The notes under the pieces: model-generated
What the model was told of the DNA's origin: nothing
What the model saw: only the letters and a program-made list of their open reading frames with translations
Database searches by the model: none
NCBI GenBank assembly: GCA_012797975.1
Contig: JAAZOD010000022.1
Location: forward strand, 86,797 to 150,796
Length of the DNA: 64,000 nucleotides
Source of the DNA: Pelolinea sp.
Lineage (GTDB): Bacteria; Chloroflexota; Anaerolineae; Anaerolineales; Anaerolineaceae
Reading direction: 5' to 3'
Made by a program: the position numbers and the translations under genes
Part shown: in pieces, positions 7,517-39,661 of the stretch
Layout of the letters: every line of letters starts with the position of its first letter
Numbering within the stretch: position 1 is the stretch's first letter

Positions 7517-8089
7517 ATGGATCATGATTCTGGTTGGTTGGAAGTGGTTTGTGGATCGATGTTTAGTGGGAAAACGGAAGAAATGATCAGACGTATCCGT
7601 CGCGCAGTGATCGCAAAACAGAAGGTTCAGGTCTTTAAACCCAAGATCGATAACCGTTACGATGCGCAAAAAGTGACTTCCCATGCCGGTTTGGATTTTG
7701 AAGCGATCCCTATTTCAACATCCGCAGAATTATGGCAGAACCTTAAGGGCGATACGACCGTGGTGGGAATCGATGAAACACAGTTCCTCGATGATGCGAT
7801 CGTGGACGTGATTGAAGAAATGGTGCAGCGTGGTATCCGCGTTATTGCCACCGGGTTGGATATGGATTTTCGCGGCGAACCTTTTGGTTGCATGCCCGTC
7901 CTTATGGCAAAAGCGGAAAAGGTTGATAAGGTCCAGGCGATTTGTATGATCTGTGGAGAACCAGCCACCCGTACTCAACGGCTGGTGGATGGGAAACCCG
8001 CTCATTACGATGATCCCATTGTGATCGTGGGCGCAGCGGAAATGTATGAAGCGCGCTGCCGCAAACACCATATCGTTCCCAGAGGGTAA
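7517..8089 (+). CDS. tdk: Thymidine kinase
   Basis: Start taken at the ATG at 7517 because GAGGT lies six bases upstream; earlier in-frame starts (7502, 7505) lack such spacing. 190 residues, normal for type II thymidine kinase. P-loop GSMFSGKT at residues 13-20, lid/activation IDETQF for the catalytic acid region, and a zinc-binding CMICG...C-RKHH pair near the C terminus. It phosphorylates thymidine with ATP in pyrimidine salvage. It overlaps no gene but is spaced four bases from hpt, forming a nucleotide-salvage operon. Confidence 0.95.
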
Positions 8090-29770: not shown

Positions 29771-32515
29771 ATGCATGCGAAAAAAATTTTTGTGTTGAGA
29801 AGATTGCAAACCTACAGCAAGCTGTTTCTGTGCGGTCTGCTGTTGGTTTCCATCGGGGTGAGTTTGTTCCTTACCCTGAGCGAGATCAACCGCCAGCGGG
29901 CGCTGGAAGCCGTGCAGGATTACTGGCGCAGCGATTACGATATTTTGGTGCGCCCGGCAGGCAGTACTTTCCTGTACGATACAGCCGGCAATCGACTGAT
30001 CGAACCCAACTTCCTTTCCGGGCAGCAGGGCGGCATTACCGATGAACAGTTGGTGCTGATCAAAACGGTCGCTGGCATCGAAGTGGCGGCGCCGGTTTCC
30101 TTCCTGGGGTATTTCCCGGTCGGCATGTTGATCGAAGGCGAAGAAGTGAACGATGATCCCGCCAACGCAGAAGCACCCTGGCTGGTTTACAAAGATGTGC
30201 GCACCTTCACCATGCACGACGGCTGGCGGGATGCCACATCTTCGGATACCTTGTATACGGTTGAAAATCGGACGGACGACTTTTTGTTGGAACCTGCTAC
30301 GGGCACCATTAAATATATCGATGGCGATGGAAAGGAATATCTGTTGCCGCAAAGTATCGCTTCCATCTTTGCCAACCCTTCTAGTGGGGAAAAGAAGATT
30401 CGACTCAGCGGGAAAGAAGACTGGGAAAGCGCTCGGGCGTATTATGAGAGCGAGCACATGCAGCCCATCGTTGGATATAAATACAACGGGTTGTTCAATT
30501 TGTATCTACCCGTGGCGGCCATCGACCCGCAAGCCGAGCAGGCGCTGGTGGGTTTGGAAGAGGCAATGAAAGAAGGTAGATATTTATCAGTGGAAGATTC
30601 ATTTATTGAACCGACTGCATCTTCTATGAATTCCTATTTCATCCCGGTCCTCATCAATGAGAATTCTTTTCAAAATATCACCATCAATATCAAAACCTAC
30701 CGGCTGACGGATCCTGCGCAGGAGAACCTCTCGCGGTCTCTGAGCAGTGAAGGAATAACTTATCTGGAAGGCATGCCCAGCGAATTGTTGGGAGAGAAGA
30801 CCATCACCCTGCATGATTACTTTTTGCAGTATGTGCAAGTTTTTATGGAACGAGGGGGAACCGTTGGTGGAACGATGGGGGGAAATCTGTGGTACTACTT
30901 GCGCCCCAGCCCTGTCCAATATACACAGGCAGGCGGACAGGAAGCTGCTTTGAGCATTTCCCCGTTTAGTATCAGCCAGTATGGCCCCATTCCGGGCGTA
31001 TCAAGTGAACCTGCCCAGGGGGCATATCGGAGAGCATTAATAGATGATTTCCGTTTAATTAGAAATGGATATGGATATAGTTTTGACTTCATGCCAGTGG
31101 GTATCTATGACCTTTCAGACCTGCCGGGTTCAACTATCAATCAGGTGCCGCAGGAACTGTATTCTGCTCCGCTGGCACTGCTGCGCGAGGATGCGCAGGG
31201 GAATGTGCCTGACCGGGAAGTGACCATCATTCCCACCAATAATCCCCTGGGTTATCTGTCGCAGCCGCCGGTGGTGCTGACCACTCTGCCGGCTGCCAAA
31301 TTCCTGGCGCAGCGCGACGACTACATCAGCGCGGTGCGCATCAGGGTGGCGGGGGTGGAAACCGCTGGAGAAGATGCCCAGCGAAAAATTGAGCAGGTTG
31401 CCCGTGAGATCGAAGAGCGCACCGGCTTGCAGGTGGATATCACGCTCGGTTCTTCTCCCCAACCCATGCTGGTGGCTGTGCAGGGTTCGGAAAAAGTGGA
31501 AGCGCTGGGCAAGGTGGAGGAGTTGTGGGTGCGCCAGTTGGTGGGTATCACCCTGCAGCGCGATTTCACCCGTTTTGATGCGCTGCTGTTCGTGGCGCTG
31601 TTCTTCTCCTTCGCGGTTTTCATGTACACCAGCGCTGCGCTCAACCTGGCCGGCAGGCAGGGGGAGATCGGGGTGTTGAAAACCGTTGGTTGGAAGGATA
31701 AGCGCATCTTGGGATATTTGCTCTCCGAGGTGCTGCTGCTGGCGCTTATCACCGGCTGTATTGCTTTTGCGGCAACCCTGGGCATTACGGCGCTGCTTGG
31801 GCATCCCATCGCTTTGGATCGGGCGGGGTTGGTCTTCCCGCTCATGCTGGGTTTGTTTGCGCTGGGTACCGCGCTTCCCTTTGCGCAGGCTGCCCGTCGC
31901 AGCCCGCTTTCTCTGCTTGGCTTGGGGGAACTGCGGGAGGGAAAAGGGCAGACTTCCAATTTCAATATGCGTTCGCTACCGGGCAGGAACATTTCCAAAC
32001 AGCGGGCGCGTTTCGCCACCGCCACGCTGGGGCTCATCCCGGCATTCTTGGCGCTCATCCTGTTCTTCTTCATCACCCTCATCATGGCGGGTGAATTGAG
32101 CGGCAGTCTGCTCGGGCAGCACATTCAAGTTCTCATCCAGCCCTATCATTATGTGCTCATGGCGCTCATCCTGCTGGTGGGCCAGTTGATACTCATGAAT
32201 ATAAGCGGCATCAATATCAAGAAACGCCAGAACGAGATCGGGGTATTGCAAACGGCGGGTTGGAAACCGATCACAATGATCGCTGCCCTTTTAAAAGAAA
32301 CACTCTACAGCACATTGGGCAGCGCTTTGCTGGCTGCCGGGATCACTATCGGGCTGCTTTCGTTGCTGCAGCGTGGTTTTCAGCTTCAATTCCTGTGGGC
32401 TGTCCCGCTGGGGCTGCTTCTGGCGGGGGTGATGAGCTTGATCGCCATGCTCTACCCGCGCCATTTGGTCCGTAAAACACAGGTCGCTGAGTTATTGCAG
32501 AAGCGATCATCGTAA
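29771..32515 (+). CDS. FtsX/MacB-type ABC transporter permease
   Basis: 914 residues. One N-terminal membrane helix (about 18-38), a large extracellular domain (40-595) and two FtsX modules. The first (about 600-715) has the GEIGVLKTVGWKDKRILGYLL loop after its first helix, the second (about 745-912) has NEIGVLQTAGWKPITMIA. These QNEIGVL-type cytoplasmic loops contact the ATPase. The layout is that of MacB/LolE-like mechanotransmitters rather than a classic importer. The extracellular domain is homologous to that of the permease at 35336 (DYDILVR, GGIT, EVAAP, FLGY in both). Overlaps nothing; ATPase follows after 17 bases. Confidence 0.88.
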   Translation: MHAKKIFVLRRLQTYSKLFLCGLLLVSIGVSLFLTLSEINRQRALEAVQDYWRSDYDILVRPAGSTFLYDTAGNRLIEPNFLSGQQGGITDEQLVLIKTVAGIEVAAPVSFLGYFPVGMLIEGEEVNDDPANAEAPWLVYKDVRTFTMHDGWRDATSSDTLYTVENRTDDFLLEPATGTIKYIDGDGKEYLLPQSIASIFANPSSGEKKIRLSGKEDWESARAYYESEHMQPIVGYKYNGLFNLYLPVAAIDPQAEQALVGLEEAMKEGRYLSVEDSFIEPTASSMNSYFIPVLINENSFQNITINIKTYRLTDPAQENLSRSLSSEGITYLEGMPSELLGEKTITLHDYFLQYVQVFMERGGTVGGTMGGNLWYYLRPSPVQYTQAGGQEAALSISPFSISQYGPIPGVSSEPAQGAYRRALIDDFRLIRNGYGYSFDFMPVGIYDLSDLPGSTINQVPQELYSAPLALLREDAQGNVPDREVTIIPTNNPLGYLSQPPVVLTTLPAAKFLAQRDDYISAVRIRVAGVETAGEDAQRKIEQVAREIEERTGLQVDITLGSSPQPMLVAVQGSEKVEALGKVEELWVRQLVGITLQRDFTRFDALLFVALFFSFAVFMYTSAALNLAGRQGEIGVLKTVGWKDKRILGYLLSEVLLLALITGCIAFAATLGITALLGHPIALDRAGLVFPLMLGLFALGTALPFAQAARRSPLSLLGLGELREGKGQTSNFNMRSLPGRNISKQRARFATATLGLIPAFLALILFFFITLIMAGELSGSLLGQHIQVLIQPYHYVLMALILLVGQLILMNISGINIKKRQNEIGVLQTAGWKPITMIAALLKETLYSTLGSALLAAGITIGLLSLLQRGFQLQFLWAVPLGLLLAGVMSLIAMLYPRHLVRKTQVAELLQKRSS

Positions 32516-32532
32516 AAGGAAAGGGATTGACA

Positions 32533-33210
32533 ATGCAAGTGATTTTTGAGCATGTGTGCAAAAAATATCAGGTTGGAGATGAAACGATCACCGTTCTGGA
32601 CAAGATGAATTTCCAGATCGAAGCAGGGGATTTTCTGGTGATCACCGGGCCTTCCGGTGCGGGTAAGACCACCTTATTGAATTTGTTGGGTACGCTGGAT
32701 GAACCAACGGCGGGCAGGATCCTGTATGATGGGGTGGAGGCGGGCAGCATGGCACCCGACCGGCTGGCAGATTTCCGCCGCGATCACATCGGTTTTGTCT
32801 TTCAATTCTATAACCTCATCCCGCAGCTTTCCGCCAGGGAAAATGTCATGCTGCCGCTGCTGCCGAATAGGAAACGGCTGGAATTCGATCTGCAGGAAAA
32901 AGCGACCGAACTGTTGGCAGAGGTTGGCTTGGATGGCAAAGGCGATAAATATCCTTATCAACTCTCGGGCGGGGAGCAGCAGCGCGTGGCCATTGCGCGC
33001 GCGCTGGTCAATACCCCCAGTCTGGTGCTGGCGGATGAGCCCACCGGCAATCTGGATGCGCATATCGGCGAACAGATCTTGCGCATCCTGCAGGGATTCA
33101 ATCGCAAACAGGGTGTGACGGTCGTGCTGGTGACGCATAACGAAAAATTCGCTCATTTTGGTACGCGGGTGACCAGGATTCAGGGCCGGAAATTACACGA
33201 GGTTCGCTAA
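32533..33210 (+). CDS. LolD/MacB-type ABC transporter ATP-binding protein
   Basis: ATG at 32533 with AAGGAAAGGG upstream; 225 residues. Walker [11 protein letters not shown]-loop in [14 protein letters not shown], signature [15 protein letters not shown], Walker [13 protein letters not shown], switch His in [10 protein letters not shown]. This short form pairs with FtsX-type permeases of the LolCDE/MacAB class. It should energise the permease upstream and possibly also the fused permease at 35336, because no second ATPase is encoded in the cluster. Confidence 0.94.
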
Positions 33211-33213
33211 ACC

Positions 33214-34176
33214 ATGCGTGGTCAGATTTTGGGCTTATTCATAGGTCTTTGCTTCATCCTTCTTTTATTCAATTCTGCCTGTGTCGGTGGAGAGAGGCCA
33301 GCGATCGAACAGACCCAATCTTCTGCGGCGGGTGTCACACCGCAAATCGATATGCACCCTCCCATTTTACATGCGGGGGATTGGGAAACTCCCCAGCCGC
33401 TGCCCGCCCCCATCGATGGAGAAGGGAATGAATTAGAACCCTTCATCACGCTGGCAGGGGATGAGTTGTATTTTTTCTACGCCCCTGATCTTTCTGTTTC
33501 CGAAGCGAAACGGGCTTTGGATGGTGTTTCGGGTATTTATTATTCAAAAAAAGTGCATGAGCTGTGGTCAGAACCTGAACGATTGATACTGTCAGAAGAA
33601 AATGCTCTGGATAGCTGTGTTTATACCGATGGGCAAGTGCTGTGGTTTTGTTCAAAGCGCGATGGAAATTATGGAGAAGGTGATCTTTATATCGCTTCTC
33701 GGGTGGATGGCGTCTGGCAGAATTGGCGGAATGCCGGAAAGCAATTGAATGTGGATTACGATGTGGGGGAAATGCATCTCTCTGCGGACCAGAACACCAT
33801 GATCTTTTCCGCTTTTCGAGCAGGAGGATTCGGTCTGATCGATCTATGGCAAACCCAGCGTGTGGGGGAGGGCTGGTCTGAACCGGTGAATTTGGGAGAT
33901 GGCATCAATAGTGCTGAAATAGAAGACTATCCTTTTCTTTCGGAGGATGGCAGAGAATTATGGTTCACTTCTTCCAGCCGCTTGGGTTACCCCGGTTATG
34001 CTATTTTCCGCTCCATTGGGCAGGATGGAGTGTGGGGGGAGCCGCAGGAGATCCTCTCCAATGATGTCAGTGAGGTATCCATTGACCGACAGGGGAACTT
34101 GTATTTTACCCATTTCCTCTATGATGAGAACGACGAGCTGCTGGGATCCAAGATCTATGTGGCATATAAGAAATAA
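33214..34176 (+). CDS. Lipoprotein with PD40/TolB-like beta-propeller repeats
   Basis: Three bases after the ATPase gene; 320 residues. Lipobox FNSAC (Cys23), then a short linker and a beta-propeller. Repeated blades of the type ...ITLAGDELYFFYAPD, YTDGQVLWFCSKRDG, LSADQNTMIFSAFRAGGFG, LSEDGRELWFTSSSRLG are visible. It is surface-exposed and probably a binding partner of the permease. Several blades carry WSEP / WGEP repeats, typical of WD40-like PD40 proteins. Confidence 0.85.
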   Translation: MRGQILGLFIGLCFILLLFNSACVGGERPAIEQTQSSAAGVTPQIDMHPPILHAGDWETPQPLPAPIDGEGNELEPFITLAGDELYFFYAPDLSVSEAKRALDGVSGIYYSKKVHELWSEPERLILSEENALDSCVYTDGQVLWFCSKRDGNYGEGDLYIASRVDGVWQNWRNAGKQLNVDYDVGEMHLSADQNTMIFSAFRAGGFGLIDLWQTQRVGEGWSEPVNLGDGINSAEIEDYPFLSEDGRELWFTSSSRLGYPGYAIFRSIGQDGVWGEPQEILSNDVSEVSIDRQGNLYFTHFLYDENDELLGSKIYVAYKK

Positions 34177-34233
34177 AATTTAGTGAGGAAATTTCGATTC
34201 TATTTCATAAGGAGAGGTATCAATAAAATTTAG
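34172..34233 (+). repeat. Direct repeat AATAAAATTTAG at the left edge of the AT-rich island
   Basis: Exact 12-base copies at 34172-34183 and 34222-34233, 50 bases apart, each followed within 20 bases by GAAATTT- or AAATTT-type sequence. The first copy contains the stop region of the lipoprotein gene. An additional ribosome-site-like AAGGAGAGGT at 34209-34218 has no ATG behind it. Could be a duplication scar or a regulatory site. Confidence 0.4.
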
Positions 34234-34262
34234 AAAACCAGAGAGAAATTTTGGGAGGAATA

Positions 34263-34949
34263 ATGGGGAGGAATGTGAAATCGAGGATTGAGTCAGAATC
34301 GCAAAAGAATAACCTAAGCTTGATTATTATCATTCTTTTAGCATTGCAGGTTATCTTATCAGGTGTCGTTCTTCTGCGGATAGTAAACTTGGAGAAATTG
34401 ATAGGGGGAACAGAAGCAAGTGAACCAGTTCCGGTTTATGTAGAAGGGGTCAGTGAAGGCGATAACCCCGCCCTGGGGCCAGAGGAAGCCCCCATAACGA
34501 TCATTGCTTTTAGTGATTTTCAATGTCCCTACTGTGCATCTGCGAATCAGTTAATCAAAGAAATTATGCAAGAATATCCCAATCAGATCCGTTATGTTCA
34601 TCGTGATTTTCCATTGAAAGAGATCCATCCGGATGCTTTCAATGCTGCACTGGCGGCTCGTTGTGCTGGTGAACAGGGTCAATATTGGGAGATGCACGAT
34701 GCTCTTTTTTCCAATCAGGAGGATTTAAGTATTGAGAAGCTGAATAAACAAGCTGAAATTTTAAATTTGGAAATGGATCAATTTAATAATTGCCTTACAA
34801 CCAGAAAATATGAGAACAAAATCCTTATTGATCTGCAAGCTGGAAAGGAATATGGTGTAAATGGAACCCCAACCATATTTGTCAATGGTTACCATGTGAA
34901 TGGCGCTGATCGAGAGGCGATCATAAATATTATTAAAGATGTTTTATAA
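34263..34949 (+). CDS. Membrane-anchored DsbA-like thiol-disulfide oxidoreductase
   Basis: The ATG at 34263 follows GGGAGGA; 228 residues. N-terminal membrane helix (about 19-41) with no cleavage site, then a DsbA/thioredoxin domain. The active site is CPYC (Cys88, Cys91) in FSDFQCPYCA; the cis-proline loop is NGTPTIFVNG. A DsbA-type enzyme with CPYC is an oxidant or isomerase of secreted proteins. It lies 77 bases upstream of the gene for an eight-cysteine secreted peptide, its most obvious substrate. Base composition is AT-richer than the flanking transporter genes. Confidence 0.9.
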   Translation: MGRNVKSRIESESQKNNLSLIIIILLALQVILSGVVLLRIVNLEKLIGGTEASEPVPVYVEGVSEGDNPALGPEEAPITIIAFSDFQCPYCASANQLIKEIMQEYPNQIRYVHRDFPLKEIHPDAFNAALAARCAGEQGQYWEMHDALFSNQEDLSIEKLNKQAEILNLEMDQFNNCLTTRKYENKILIDLQAGKEYGVNGTPTIFVNGYHVNGADREAIINIIKDVL

Positions 34950-35026
34950 GGTTTTTCTAGGAGGATGGGCATAGGGGACAAAAACATGTGAGGTTAGAAC
35001 AAGGCAAGTTATAAGGGAGGTTAATC

Positions 35027-35308
35027 ATGAATACAAAAAATAGAATACAGAAAATCCTTTTATTGGGATTGGTGGCGATATCAGTGTTTCTGATTGCATT
35101 TGCGCTCGATACTCCTCAACCCGTTCAAGCAGATGCGAAATATCCTTGCGATGGTTATATATGCATTGAATTGACACAACAACAATCGCTGATTCTATGT
35201 GGTGTTTTTGAACCTGCTTATGCATATGCATGTTCGAATTGGTGTTATCAAGGAGGGGTTGGCTTTTGCGAGGGAATCGAACAATGCCAACCCTGGTGTC
35301 CTGAATAA
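35027..35308 (+). CDS. Secreted cysteine-rich peptide (eight Cys), unknown function
   Basis: Strong ribosome site AAGGGAGG seven bases before the ATG; 93 residues. N-terminal basic stretch and a hydrophobic core (about 10-27), then a signal peptidase I site Ala-Asp-Ala at 35-37, giving a mature 56-residue peptide. Mature cysteines are 41, 46, 58, 69, 73, 81, 87 and 91, an even number, enough for four disulfides. The mature part is acidic and aromatic. No family is recognised; a bacteriocin, toxin-like or signalling peptide, or a small envelope protein, are possibilities. It sits between a DsbA-like gene and a permease-peptidase gene in the same direction. Confidence 0.8.
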   Translation: MNTKNRIQKILLLGLVAISVFLIAFALDTPQPVQADAKYPCDGYICIELTQQQSLILCGVFEPAYAYACSNWCYQGGVGFCEGIEQCQPWCPE

Positions 35309-35335
35309 ACCTAATTGAAATAGAATAGACCTCAC

Positions 35336-38300
35336 ATGAAGAAACAACCTCATGCCCATTCCCTTCTGGATCGCCGCATCTGGGGCGCCATTCTGCCGGC
35401 GGCGCTGCTGAACAGCCTGGTGCTGGTGATCTTCTTTTCAGCGCTTGCCAGCCAGCAGGTGCTGGTGGATCGCACGCTCAAGGAGTACCAGCGTACCACC
35501 TACGATATCTTGGTGCGCGCTCCTGAGAATGTGACCGAGATCGAAAAAGAGTATGGCTTGGTGGAAGCCAACCATCTGAACGGCACGGCGGGCGGTATCA
35601 CTATGGAGCAGTACGCACAGATCAAAGCCATCCCCAATGTGGAGGTGGCTGCTCCCATCGCTGTGCTGGGTTATATGGATCGCATCAAAATGGGGATCAC
35701 CATCCTGGATCCCTCCCTGCCGGCTGGCATTTACCGCATCAGCGGCAGTGCAGGCATTGTGGAGGGCGGGCAGTACATCACTTCGGCGCAGTTATCTCCT
35801 TATTATGCTCTGCATACGCCGGGTGTGTCAATTGGGGCGGACGAATTGTTTACCGGATGGGGGGATACACTTTTACGCTTACGCTTGTCGATCACGATGG
35901 GGGGAAATGACCCAACAACCGATGGATTCATGATCTTTCTACCTCAATCTACCGATCGCATGCTGATCGCAGCCATCGACCCCGAGCAGGAAGCCAAGCT
36001 GGTGCATCTGGATGACATGCTGGTATCTGGCAGTTATTTACCCCAAGATCCTCCGTTTATCGATGACCACTCCTACATTCGCATTCCGGTGCTGTTCAAT
36101 ATTCATGACTATATCCAGCAGACCATCTCCGTGCAGTTGGAACGCCTGGATTTCGATGTAGACGTGAAAGAAAATTTCGCACAGCAACTGCAAACCATTC
36201 CCGATCCGGCAGCGCTGGATGCGATGGAACGCCAGCCAGTTTATGACCTGGATCTGACCCTGCAACATATCTGGCAGAAAGAAGCCATCGATTTACAGGT
36301 CGAAAATGGGAAGGTGATCGGGGTTCACGAGAGTAATTATTCGATCTTTGGGACGTTGTATGCTCCAACAGTAGTGCAGTACCGTATCTTGGAAAAACCG
36401 CCTGCTGGTTTGCCCGAGGATACATTGGTTCTGGAAGCTATTCCCCAGGGTCTTTCCACAGCAAGCAATACGGACAAAAGGGATCTATTAACGACACCAG
36501 AACTACAAGAATGGAGCAGTCTCACCGATTGGCAGGTGGAGCCCGAGGTGACCTACCGACCGCTCTCTCCTCGGTTCGAGTATAGTATTATGTTCAACCC
36601 CTATGCAGAAGGCAATGGGCAGTTCGATATCGATACCTCCACCGCGTTGGGCGGCTCTTCGCTCAATCAGGTGCCGCTGGAGACCTATCTGCCGCCTTCC
36701 GCGCTCTTGAAATATGATGAAAATGGGGAGGAATTGGAAACCCCCGTCACTCTTACACCCACCTTGAATAATGAGGGTTATCTGGTTTCCCCGCCCGATG
36801 TACTTATTTCGCTGACCTCCGCGCAGCAACTATTGGAATATGGTTGTGCGGATGTGGTACCGGATGCGACGAGAGAATCTGGCTATAAGGTGGCACTGGT
36901 GCCTTGTGAGCCGCCGGAGGATTTCATTTCCGCCATCCGCGTGCGGGTGGGCGGCATTGATGAAATGGATGCGCATGCCCAGGCGCGCATCGAACAGGTG
37001 GCGGATGAGATCGTGCGCCAGACCGGGCTGCATGTGGATGTGATGGTCGGTTCTTCCCCTCAACCGGTGCTGGTGCATATCCCCGGTTATGAAGGGACTG
37101 ACGAATTGGGATATGTCGAGGAATACTGGGTCAAGAAGAACGTCAACACCCTCATTCAAACCGGTATGAACCTGGCGGATGGCATGCTGTTTGCCGCCAT
37201 GCTGTGCGCCGGCATCCTGCTGCTTTTCAATCTCAACACCTTCTTGATGCTGGGCCGCATTTCCGAAGTGGCGCTCTACAACGCGCTGGGCTGGCGGCGT
37301 ACAGCTATATTAAAACGCTTGTTACTGCAGGTTCTACCCGTCGGCTTGCTCAGCACCGTGCTGGCTGCCCTCCTGTCTTTGGTGATCATCCATATCCTCG
37401 CGTTGCAGGTGGTTGTGGGGCAGTTCTTGCTGGTGCTGCTGCTGGAACTGGCGGCGTTCATGCTCAGCGCATTGCTGCCGGCCTGGCAAATATCCAAAGC
37501 GCCTCCGGCGGTATATCTGCAAAAAGGGGAAGCCGCCCCGCGAACAGTGTACGCTGGAAAGATGAGCATGCGCACGATCATCGGCAATAATATCAAACGC
37601 AAACCGGCTCGTTCCCTGACCATTGTTTTCAGTGTGCTGTTGACCAGTGGGCTGTTGACCTTGATCAGCTTGGTGCAAGGCGGCTTACAGGGGCAGTTGT
37701 ACGGTACCTTGTTGGGTCGCTGGATCCACTCATCCATTCAGCCCTATCACCAGCTTATGGAACTGGGTGCGCTCTTGATGACCGGCATGAATATCTTTCT
37801 TTCGACCCGCGTCAATGTGAATGAGCGCAAAGATGAGATCGGGCTGCTCAGTGCCATGGGTTGGCGCCGTCGGGATGTGGCAAATCTGTTCTGTTGGGAG
37901 CAGGTGGGCATCAGCTTGGCGGGCGCAGCGCTGGGATTGTTGCTGGGCGCGGGTATTTTTTGGGGTGCGTATCGTGAAACAGCACTTACCTCATTGCCCT
38001 GGTTGCAGACTATTCTGCTGGGCTTGGTTTTGCCGGTGGGACTATCCTATCTGACGGCTCTTTATCCGGCCTATCGGGGTGCCAGTTTGCTGCCGTTGGA
38101 AGCGCTGCGCGAAAAAGCGGGTAAAGCCAGACAGAACATGCTGCGTTCTACTGCTTTGTATGTAGGGTTGGGTTTGTTGGGGCTGTTTGCAGTGGTTTTT
38201 TTGCTCCGAAATGCTCTTTTCTCCGCTGTTTCTCCAGATATTTCTAGTTCTTCGGAGATGCCTTCCACCGGCACTGTCACTGCTGCATCCACCATCACGC

Positions 38301-39661
38301 CTGCTCCCACGCCAACCCCTGTTTTGGAGGAAGAGGCGCCGCACTATCACGTAGATGTGGTGGTTGATCCGGATCAATTGCGCATGACGGGGCAGGAGAC
38401 CATTACCTATACAAACAACACCGGTGTGCCGCTGGAGGAGATAGTGCTGCGTTTGTATGCCAACATTCCATTTGGCTTCGAGGAGATGGAAAAGGATCCC
38501 ACTATTGGGTATATGTTTTCCAACCGTATTCAATTAGATAAGGTAAATGTAGATGGGCAGCCGGTGGAGGTGGTGTTGAGCGGACACAACAGCGTCGCCA
38601 CCCTGCGCTTGGAGAATCCGCTGGCAGTCGGGCAGTCCATTACCATGGATCTGTCCTTTACCTTGCAGGGTATGGATACTCTGAATTATGTGGGTTCTGT
38701 GTGGACGGAGGATTCGCTCTTTCCCATGCTGGCGGTCTATGATCAGGATGGCTGGCGCCAGGATATCACCACAACTCCGGATATTGTGTACAGCCAGAGC
38801 GCTCGTTTCAATTATGCGGTCACTCTTCCCTCCGATTGGCAGATCGTCGCCACGGGCGATCAGCTTGCGGTGGAAACGCTGTCAACTGGACAAATGCGCT
38901 ATACCTACCAGACCGGTTTGGTGCGCGATGTGAGCATCACATTCAGCCGGCAGTTTGAGATTCTACAGCGTACGGTTGGGGATACTACCTTATATCTGGC
39001 GCTTGCCAACCCTGAAACAGACAACGAATTTCTCCTGGACAGCGCTGAAAGTGCCTTTTCTCTGTACGAACGACTGTTTGGCGAATATCCCTTTGCTTCG
39101 TTGAAGATCATTGCTTGGAAAGCTGTTCGCTCCAGTGGAAAAGAATATCCCGCTCTGATCTATGTGGGCTATAACATCGCCGAGGATTATAAAATGCAGA
39201 AGGTGATGGCGCATGAGATCGCGCACCAGTGGTGGTTCAGCACGGTGGGTAATGATATTTTTAACGACGCTTGGCTGGATGAAGGATTTGCAGAATACTC
39301 GTCCTTGCTTTATTTGCGAGAGACGCAGGGGGAAGAAGTATTTCAGAATGATCTGAAGGAATTGGAGAACAGTGCAGCCCTGGCGGATGCCGAGAGTGGT
39401 GGCAAGTACAAGGTTGGCAGCTCGCTGGAAGAGCTATCCGCATCCCATTACTATACCAATTTCGTATACGCAAAAGGTGCACTTTTTTTGGATACCCTCC
39501 GCACCCAAATGGGCGAGGAGGCTTTCTTTTCTGGCTTGCGTGCTTATTACCAGCAGTATCAATTTGGGGTAGCCGACCGGCAGGGCTTTCTGGAGGTCAT
39601 GCAGCGCTTCAGTAAAACCAACCTTGCCCCGCTTTTTGAGGAATGGATCGGCATGGACTGA
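35336..39661 (+). CDS. FtsX/MacB-type permease fused to an M1-family zinc metallopeptidase
   Basis: One uninterrupted frame of 1441 residues starting 27 bases after the peptide gene. Residues 16-38 membrane helix; 40-600 extracellular domain homologous to the permease at 29771; two FtsX modules (about 610-730 and 757-925) with SEVALYNALGWRR and DEIGLLSAMGWRRRD loops; a further helix (938-961); a Thr/Ser/Pro linker (965-1000). The M1 aminopeptidase part (about 1002-1441) has HEIAH at 1293-1297 and the third zinc ligand Glu1316 in LDEGFAEY, with SSGKEYPALIYV in place of the GAMEN exopeptidase motif. The peptidase should face outside the membrane. No second ATPase gene is present; the LolD-like protein upstream may serve both permeases. 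Confidence 0.88.
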   Translation: MKKQPHAHSLLDRRIWGAILPAALLNSLVLVIFFSALASQQVLVDRTLKEYQRTTYDILVRAPENVTEIEKEYGLVEANHLNGTAGGITMEQYAQIKAIPNVEVAAPIAVLGYMDRIKMGITILDPSLPAGIYRISGSAGIVEGGQYITSAQLSPYYALHTPGVSIGADELFTGWGDTLLRLRLSITMGGNDPTTDGFMIFLPQSTDRMLIAAIDPEQEAKLVHLDDMLVSGSYLPQDPPFIDDHSYIRIPVLFNIHDYIQQTISVQLERLDFDVDVKENFAQQLQTIPDPAALDAMERQPVYDLDLTLQHIWQKEAIDLQVENGKVIGVHESNYSIFGTLYAPTVVQYRILEKPPAGLPEDTLVLEAIPQGLSTASNTDKRDLLTTPELQEWSSLTDWQVEPEVTYRPLSPRFEYSIMFNPYAEGNGQFDIDTSTALGGSSLNQVPLETYLPPSALLKYDENGEELETPVTLTPTLNNEGYLVSPPDVLISLTSAQQLLEYGCADVVPDATRESGYKVALVPCEPPEDFISAIRVRVGGIDEMDAHAQARIEQVADEIVRQTGLHVDVMVGSSPQPVLVHIPGYEGTDELGYVEEYWVKKNVNTLIQTGMNLADGMLFAAMLCAGILLLFNLNTFLMLGRISEVALYNALGWRRTAILKRLLLQVLPVGLLSTVLAALLSLVIIHILALQVVVGQFLLVLLLELAAFMLSALLPAWQISKAPPAVYLQKGEAAPRTVYAGKMSMRTIIGNNIKRKPARSLTIVFSVLLTSGLLTLISLVQGGLQGQLYGTLLGRWIHSSIQPYHQLMELGALLMTGMNIFLSTRVNVNERKDEIGLLSAMGWRRRDVANLFCWEQVGISLAGAALGLLLGAGIFWGAYRETALTSLPWLQTILLGLVLPVGLSYLTALYPAYRGASLLPLEALREKAGKARQNMLRSTALYVGLGLLGLFAVVFLLRNALFSAVSPDISSSSEMPSTGTVTAASTITPAPTPTPVLEEEAPHYHVDVVVDPDQLRMTGQETITYTNNTGVPLEEIVLRLYANIPFGFEEMEKDPTIGYMFSNRIQLDKVNVDGQPVEVVLSGHNSVATLRLENPLAVGQSITMDLSFTLQGMDTLNYVGSVWTEDSLFPMLAVYDQDGWRQDITTTPDIVYSQSARFNYAVTLPSDWQIVATGDQLAVETLSTGQMRYTYQTGLVRDVSITFSRQFEILQRTVGDTTLYLALANPETDNEFLLDSAESAFSLYERLFGEYPFASLKIIAWKAVRSSGKEYPALIYVGYNIAEDYKMQKVMAHEIAHQWWFSTVGNDIFNDAWLDEGFAEYSSLLYLRETQGEEVFQNDLKELENSAALADAESGGKYKVGSSLEELSASHYYTNFVYAKGALFLDTLRTQMGEEAFFSGLRAYYQQYQFGVADRQGFLEVMQRFSKTNLAPLFEEWIGMD

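Follow-up and report, generated by a model that had tools for sequence, protein, structure and literature searches.

The operons of pediocin PA-1 and bactofencin A encode, besides the peptide, an ABC transporter and an accessory protein of the thioredoxin family (PMC5465099). Actifensin, a defensin-like product of Actinomyces, is a cysteine-rich peptide encoded alongside ABC genes, and it represents a sequence-degenerate family that has been overlooked by mining tools (PMC6989792). Candidate clusters in Streptomyces, proposed by decRiPPter, pair homologues of MauE and MauD with precursors of at least eight cysteines (PMC7794033). Finally, the peptides of the lactococcin 972 family are thought to be secreted by Sec, and are encoded in a three-gene locus together with predicted immunity and transporter proteins (PMC11796350).

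In the 64-kb stretch of Pelolinea DNA analysed here (the window), a gene for a small, cysteine-rich and probably secreted peptide lies directly behind a gene for a DsbA-family oxidoreductase, and both are enclosed by the genes of an ABC operon. The features of the locus are as follows:

29771..32515, + strand: FtsX-type ABC permease, 914 aa (Pfam FtsX, E=1.6e-16); in the FtsX tree, the rows closest to it are peptide-linked permeases
32527..33210, + strand: ABC transporter ATPase of the MacB/LolD type, 227 aa (Pfam ABC_tran, E=4e-35)
33214..34176, + strand: predicted lipoprotein with a PD40 beta-propeller repeat, 320 aa (Pfam PD40, E=2e-5), starting 4 nt after the ATPase gene
34180..35330, no strand: AT-rich island (GC 0.40) within the ABC operon, comprising dsbA and the peptide gene
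34263..34949, + strand: membrane-anchored DsbA-family oxidoreductase with CPYC and an N-terminal TM helix (Thioredoxin_4, E=1.9e-33; DSBA, E=8.4e-22)
35015..35020, + strand: Shine-Dalgarno sequence GGGAGG of the peptide gene, read from the sequence, 6 nt 5' of the ATG
35027..35131, + strand: signal peptide (leader) of the peptide, residues 1-35, cleavage probably VQA/DA by composition-corrected leader similarity
35132..35305, + strand: predicted mature peptide, 58 aa, with eight cysteines spaced C-4-C-11-C-10-C-3-C-7-C-5-C-3-C
35336..39661, + strand: fusion of an FtsX permease with an M1 peptidase domain, 1441 aa (FtsX, E=1.1e-20; Peptidase_M1, E=4e-25)

Inspection of the sequence shows that the open reading frame (ORF) at 35027-35308 (+ strand) encodes 93 residues, MNTKNRIQKILLLGLVAISVFLIAFALDTPQPVQA followed by DAKYPCDGYICIELTQQQSLILCGVFEPAYAYACSNWCYQGGVGFCEGIEQCQPWCPE. 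It is the sole ORF in the window to pass a filter for secreted cysteine-rich products, which asks for a hydrophobic N-terminus or signal peptide and for at least six cysteines at a content of at least 7%. The cysteines at positions 41, 46, 58, 69, 73, 81, 87 and 91, all within the mature part, are exactly those listed in the original prediction, which had also pointed to a strong ribosome site, now identified as the GGGAGG element, and to a DsbA-like neighbour, which is dsbA, encoded on the same strand 78 nt upstream. The start of dsbA is most likely the ATG at 34263 rather than the TTG at 34251, to which the ORF extends. The signal peptide was correctly recognised as well, though its proposed cleavage site is probably not the one used. 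Both VQA35 and ADA37 fit the -3/-1 rule, and cleavage after Val-Gln-Ala35 appears more likely than after Ala-Asp-Ala37, because VQA is common to the leaders of four peptides. The mature peptide has a computed charge of -6 and a pI of 4.05; cut after VQA35 and carrying four disulfides, it has a predicted average mass of 6485.2 Da; a cut after ADA37 would give about 6299.1 Da. Its gene is single-copy in its own genome (2.57 Mb, 98.5% complete), and no tRNA, Rfam or terminator feature was found at the locus. Structure prediction gave no usable model of the precursor or the mature part (pLDDT 60 and 50). The ABC operon around the gene and the peptide's place in a diverse set, described below, had formed no part of the original prediction.

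Searches with the peptide returned no match in Pfam, NCBIfam, PHROGs, PADLOC or the PDB, nor in plasmids, phages, viral contigs and GTDB contigs. Nothing credible emerged from 396 genomes of the class, where the marginal matches proved to be frames with stops or pieces of large proteins and none was a cysteine-rich secreted ORF. A profile built from six of the peptides recovered only its own members from 337 genomes, and the relatives of the window peptide likewise gave no convincing match to a curated bacteriocin or cysteine-rich family. Judged by its sequence, the peptide is a member of none of the described bacteriocin families, in agreement with what had been claimed. Its description as an orphan holds for the sequence, given that no direct homologue with conserved cysteines was found, but not for the context: the DsbA clade led to similar peptides in the same slot in other genomes.

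The window DsbA carries CPYC at residue 92 and a cis-proline motif GTPT at residue 205, and belongs to the DsbA/Thioredoxin_4 proteins; against the Rcas_1661 thioredoxin-like (seleno)lipoprotein model (NF041057) it scores 93 bits, where at least 190 are required. A search of 298 genomes of the class with this DsbA alone ranked genomes G107, G222 and G278 at the top. In all three, a short ORF encoding a signal peptide and 6-8 cysteines lies 39-70 nt downstream on the same strand. Further peptide-linked loci comprise a second one in G222 (10 cysteines), one shared by G107 and G222 (8 cysteines; gene order peptide, PsbP-like secreted protein, DsbA), and members in G128 and G087. Later searches, which used a profile of linked DsbAs (A1) and therefore sampled non-randomly, added G179, G941 and G367, whose mature part has 17 cysteines. 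No peptide gene adjoins the lower-ranking DsbAs of this order.

In a tree of 99 DsbA sequences, nine core peptide-linked DsbAs, that of the window included, form one branch (UFBoot 96, SH-aLRT 92). Every sampled member of this branch (9/9) adjoins a small secreted cysteine-rich peptide (6-17 cysteines), and none is unlinked. The peptide-link label requires 3 changes on the tree, compared with a mean of 11.5 after shuffling, and 0 of 500 shuffles gave a value as low. The association lends support to the earlier proposal that the product is coupled to the oxidoreductase. The genomes concerned span several families and the DsbA tree departs from the family groupings, which suggests horizontal transfer. 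No VKOR homologue was found in the Pelolinea genome, which encodes two Thioredoxin_4 proteins.

Some members of this set are unusual. A DsbA relative in G087 (L106:9819-10499) has EYPYC instead of CxxC, with the first cysteine lost, and adjoins a 224-aa secreted protein with nine cysteines. The peptide of G367 (L145:9027-9410) holds its 17 cysteines in a mature part of 102 residues and lies beside a DsbA and divergent ABC genes. The DsbA at locus c of G222 (L113:7382-7987) ends early, at 201 aa, with its C-terminus lost; the mature part of the adjoining peptide is still identical to that of G107, and G222 has two other DsbAs of the peptide-linked clade.

A second, separate association concerns the ABC genes. 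The ABC link was found INDEPENDENTLY: a search with the FtsX-M1 protein brought up the FtsX loci. FtsX permease relatives in G087, G149, G139, G101 and G121 adjoin ORFs with a signal peptide and 8-13 cysteines, and an N-anchored redoxin is present at four of these five loci (G087, G149, G139 and G101). Among 655 background genes, which were drawn from the fetched loci and not from random genome stretches, a single one has a signal-peptide, cysteine-rich ORF within 150 nt downstream, and this sole positive is the G087 locus itself. That locus (L222), home of the closest FtsX relative, encodes two cysteine-rich secreted peptides, an FtsX permease, ABC ATPases, a redoxin with a membrane anchor (CPAC; Pfam AhpC-TSA) and an ABC permease whose M1 match is weak and lacks HEXXH. 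The window ATPase is 52-55% identical to ATPases beside several related FtsX genes. Six other FtsX loci have no peptide under the cysteine-rich filter, accessory genes vary between loci, and the peptide-linked permeases do not form one clade in the FtsX tree.

The window unites both associations, in the order FtsX, ATPase, lipoprotein, DsbA, peptide, FtsX-M1. With an FtsX permease and an ABC ATPase it has the composition of a MacB/FtsX ABC transporter, at scores below the MacB equivalog cut-off. The FtsX-M1 fusion retains an intact HEIAH-x18-E zinc site (motif at residue 1293), and no such fusion was seen among the other FtsX relatives scanned. No recognisable immunity gene is present at the window locus; the lipoprotein is a possible accessory or immunity protein. 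We also considered it as a relative of the accessory lipoprotein of G107a, to which it shows no similarity. Two PsbP-like secreted proteins at other loci (L102:7904-9046 and L105:8240-9481) are related to each other (38% identity over 161 aa) without a Pfam match; lying beside peptides at different loci, they are candidate accessory or immunity proteins.

Leaders and cores were compared separately by composition-corrected alignments, expressed as z scores. The leaders of the F group are related (z 2.6-19), while their cores mostly remain at the level of chance (z <2). The window leader aligns with those of F121 (z 6.0), G179 (5.4), F101 (5.1), G128 (5.1) and F139 (4.8), and the window core resembles none of the other cores significantly. 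The cores of G278 and G941, whose genomes belong to different families, are clearly related (E=1.7e-11 by phmmer within 12 sequences). A C-terminal C-x5-7-C-x3-C ending is common to the peptides of the window, G278, G222b, G128 and G941, a sharing that we regard as suggestive only. Peptide charge across the set ranges from -10 to +4.

The base composition of the locus is uneven. The dsbA and peptide genes have a GC content of 0.40 (GC3 0.36 and 0.30) versus 0.53-0.54 (GC3 0.62-0.65) for the ABC genes, the PD40 lipoprotein gene being intermediate at 0.488. This contrast is consistent with an insertion of dsbA and the peptide gene into the ABC operon. Cassette exchange is observed at other loci. 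G107 and G222 are of one genus, and their locus-a flanks agree at 90.5% of positions until ~45 nt before the end of dsbA and at 91.9% beyond the exchanged segment; the segment itself (L101 10519-12419), with the peptide gene and the following accessory gene, shows no similarity between the two. At locus c both genomes carry the same peptide, whose mature part is identical; every amino-acid difference falls in the leader. G242, from the same genus, lacks the three-gene locus-c cassette, and there the next gene comes within ~75 nt of clpX. The identical mature part and a dN of 0.021 against a dS of 0.088 (6 of 10 changes at third positions, on small numbers) show that the G107c/G222c pair is not drifting neutrally, the outcome that would have spoken for a spurious frame; this orthologous pair is under purifying selection.

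The G179 peptide gene is flanked by imperfect inverted repeats of ~58 nt (L193:7296-7353 and 7778-7835; 36 nt core, 86% complementary), and the window peptide by a weak counterpart, ATGGGCAT...CATGTGAGGT, located approximately at 34956-34994 and 35329-35370. As a mobility signature such repeats were discarded: G179 alone has strong ones, those of the window are weak (p 0.03, post hoc) and most loci have none.

The reading we prefer, to which we assign a probability of roughly 0.55, is that the gene encodes a Sec-exported, disulfide-rich peptide, oxidised by DsbA, that forms an exchangeable cassette within an FtsX/MacB-type ABC operon and acts on other bacteria. Secretion and oxidation of the peptide are inferences, though well supported ones. 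The precursor would be exported by Sec and its leader cut off, most likely after VQA35; the adjacent anchored DsbA would then oxidise the 58-residue mature part outside the membrane, forming up to four disulfides, and the acidic peptide would be released. The dsbA and peptide genes would have entered the ABC operon together as a cassette. Once released, the peptide would most probably act on other bacteria in a bacteriocin-like manner, and the ABC transporter may serve release or self-protection: together with the lipoprotein, the transporter, one permease of which carries the M1 domain, would protect the producer by pumping out, clipping or sequestering its own peptide. That the M1 domain trims or destroys the peptide is speculation. 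We infer antagonism from the exchange and diversity of the peptides, from an operon plan like those of pediocin, bactofencin and actifensin, and from the ABC transporter, and we regard the peptide as a probable antagonistic product. Its acidity (-6) is atypical of antimicrobial peptides and counts against this function. Points against the preferred reading are also the missing recognisable immunity gene, the core's lack of similarity to other cores, the FtsX operons that have no peptide, the accessory genes that vary between loci and the absence of a VKOR. At somewhat less than even odds, we would extend the proposal to an undescribed class of inter-bacterial peptides, Sec-exported and multiply disulfide-bonded, with a conserved leader, a swapped core, an anchored thiol oxidase of their own (a DsbA or a redoxin) and in many cases an ABC transporter of FtsX type, whose cassettes are replaced between sister species in a venom-like fashion.

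Among the alternatives, a structural role is the strongest, although we consider it unlikely. The peptide would then be a surface or matrix protein hardened by disulfides, and the ABC/FtsX operon would serve envelope biogenesis, with no antagonism involved. Acidic cores rich in Tyr, Trp and Gly would suit such a role, as would the surface-type neighbours at some loci (DUF2298, PGA_cap and PsbP-like secreted proteins), but structural parts do not usually come and go or get exchanged wholesale between sister species, nor do they usually join a related leader to a variable core. Less likely still is a secreted signal or recognition peptide, for kin or quorum, sensed via the lipoprotein and ABC proteins or a nearby regulator. 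Variable cores could confer specificity, LuxR-type response regulators adjoin two loci (L103 and L107), and an ECF sigma factor and a DUF4367 protein lie beside a G087 locus; the window operon, however, has no histidine kinase or regulator, and multi-disulfide products of 58-100 residues are big for pheromones. We think it improbable that the peptide is a cysteine-rich enzyme subunit or substrate in need of a dedicated oxidase, as MauA is with MauD/MauE. The anchored redoxins at related FtsX loci do resemble MauD in fold class, but neither a dehydrogenase nor any other large catalytic subunit could be recognised among the genes of the loci examined, and the cores have no common active-site motif. 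Least probable of all is a spurious or decaying frame beside dsbA: the window ORF has no sequence homologue in any collection searched, yet the same slot repeatedly holds signal-peptide, cysteine-rich ORFs, and with its own Shine-Dalgarno sequence and the purifying selection in one orthologous pair this upholds the earlier view of a real product.

Returning to the preferred reading, we assign the window peptide to a fast-changing and hitherto unlisted group of cysteine-rich peptides encoded beside their own disulfide-forming enzyme and often with an ABC transporter. Such peptides would escape sequence-based mining because only the leader, the cysteine content and the neighbours are conserved, and the DsbA clade and the FtsX permease provide usable baits for finding them. 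If antagonism is true, the Chloroflexota, a lineage with little known chemistry, would yield stable antibacterial peptides rich in disulfides. For the evolution of a dedicated oxidase alongside a single substrate, the locus is a clear example too, and it prompts the question by what route the DsbA is itself re-oxidised.

How, then, does the locus compare with the described systems? Like those of pediocin PA-1 and bactofencin A, it joins a secreted peptide with disulfides, predicted in the case of the window, to ABC transporter genes and to an operon gene for an accessory protein of thioredoxin fold, here the upstream dsbA. In those systems the peptide has one or two disulfides and leaves the cell through the transporter encoded in its operon, whereas the window peptide has a Sec-type leader, an acidic core and up to four disulfides, its permeases are of the FtsX type, and its sequence shows no similarity. 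Class IIa and IId bacteriocins are marked by a double-glycine leader and a peptidase-bearing ABC exporter; the window leader ends in VQA, and no C39 peptidase was detected in a Pfam scan of its ATPase and permeases. Because leader type, transporter type and cysteine spacing differ, the locus is not a member of the thioredoxin-accessory bacteriocin operons. With actifensin it shares a leader-bearing, cysteine-rich secreted peptide and adjacent genes for an ABC permease and ATPase, but mature actifensin has 37 aa, no thioredoxin-fold protein is among the operon genes described, and lineage and cysteine spacing differ. The Sec-type leader (VQA/DA) and the membrane and ABC partner genes recall lactococcin 972, which is a beta-sandwich bacteriocin. 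Lactococcin 972 peptides are not known to be cysteine-rich, and neither the window peptide nor the permeases matched a Pfam or NCBIfam profile of that family. The nearest published concept is that of the MauE/MauD candidates of decRiPPter, likened to the window by description: these are candidates only, from Streptomyces, with MauE/MauD in place of DsbA. The window precursor, with eight cysteines, reaches their lower bound of eight, its redox partner is a DsbA, and the related FtsX loci have anchored AhpC-TSA/redoxin proteins.
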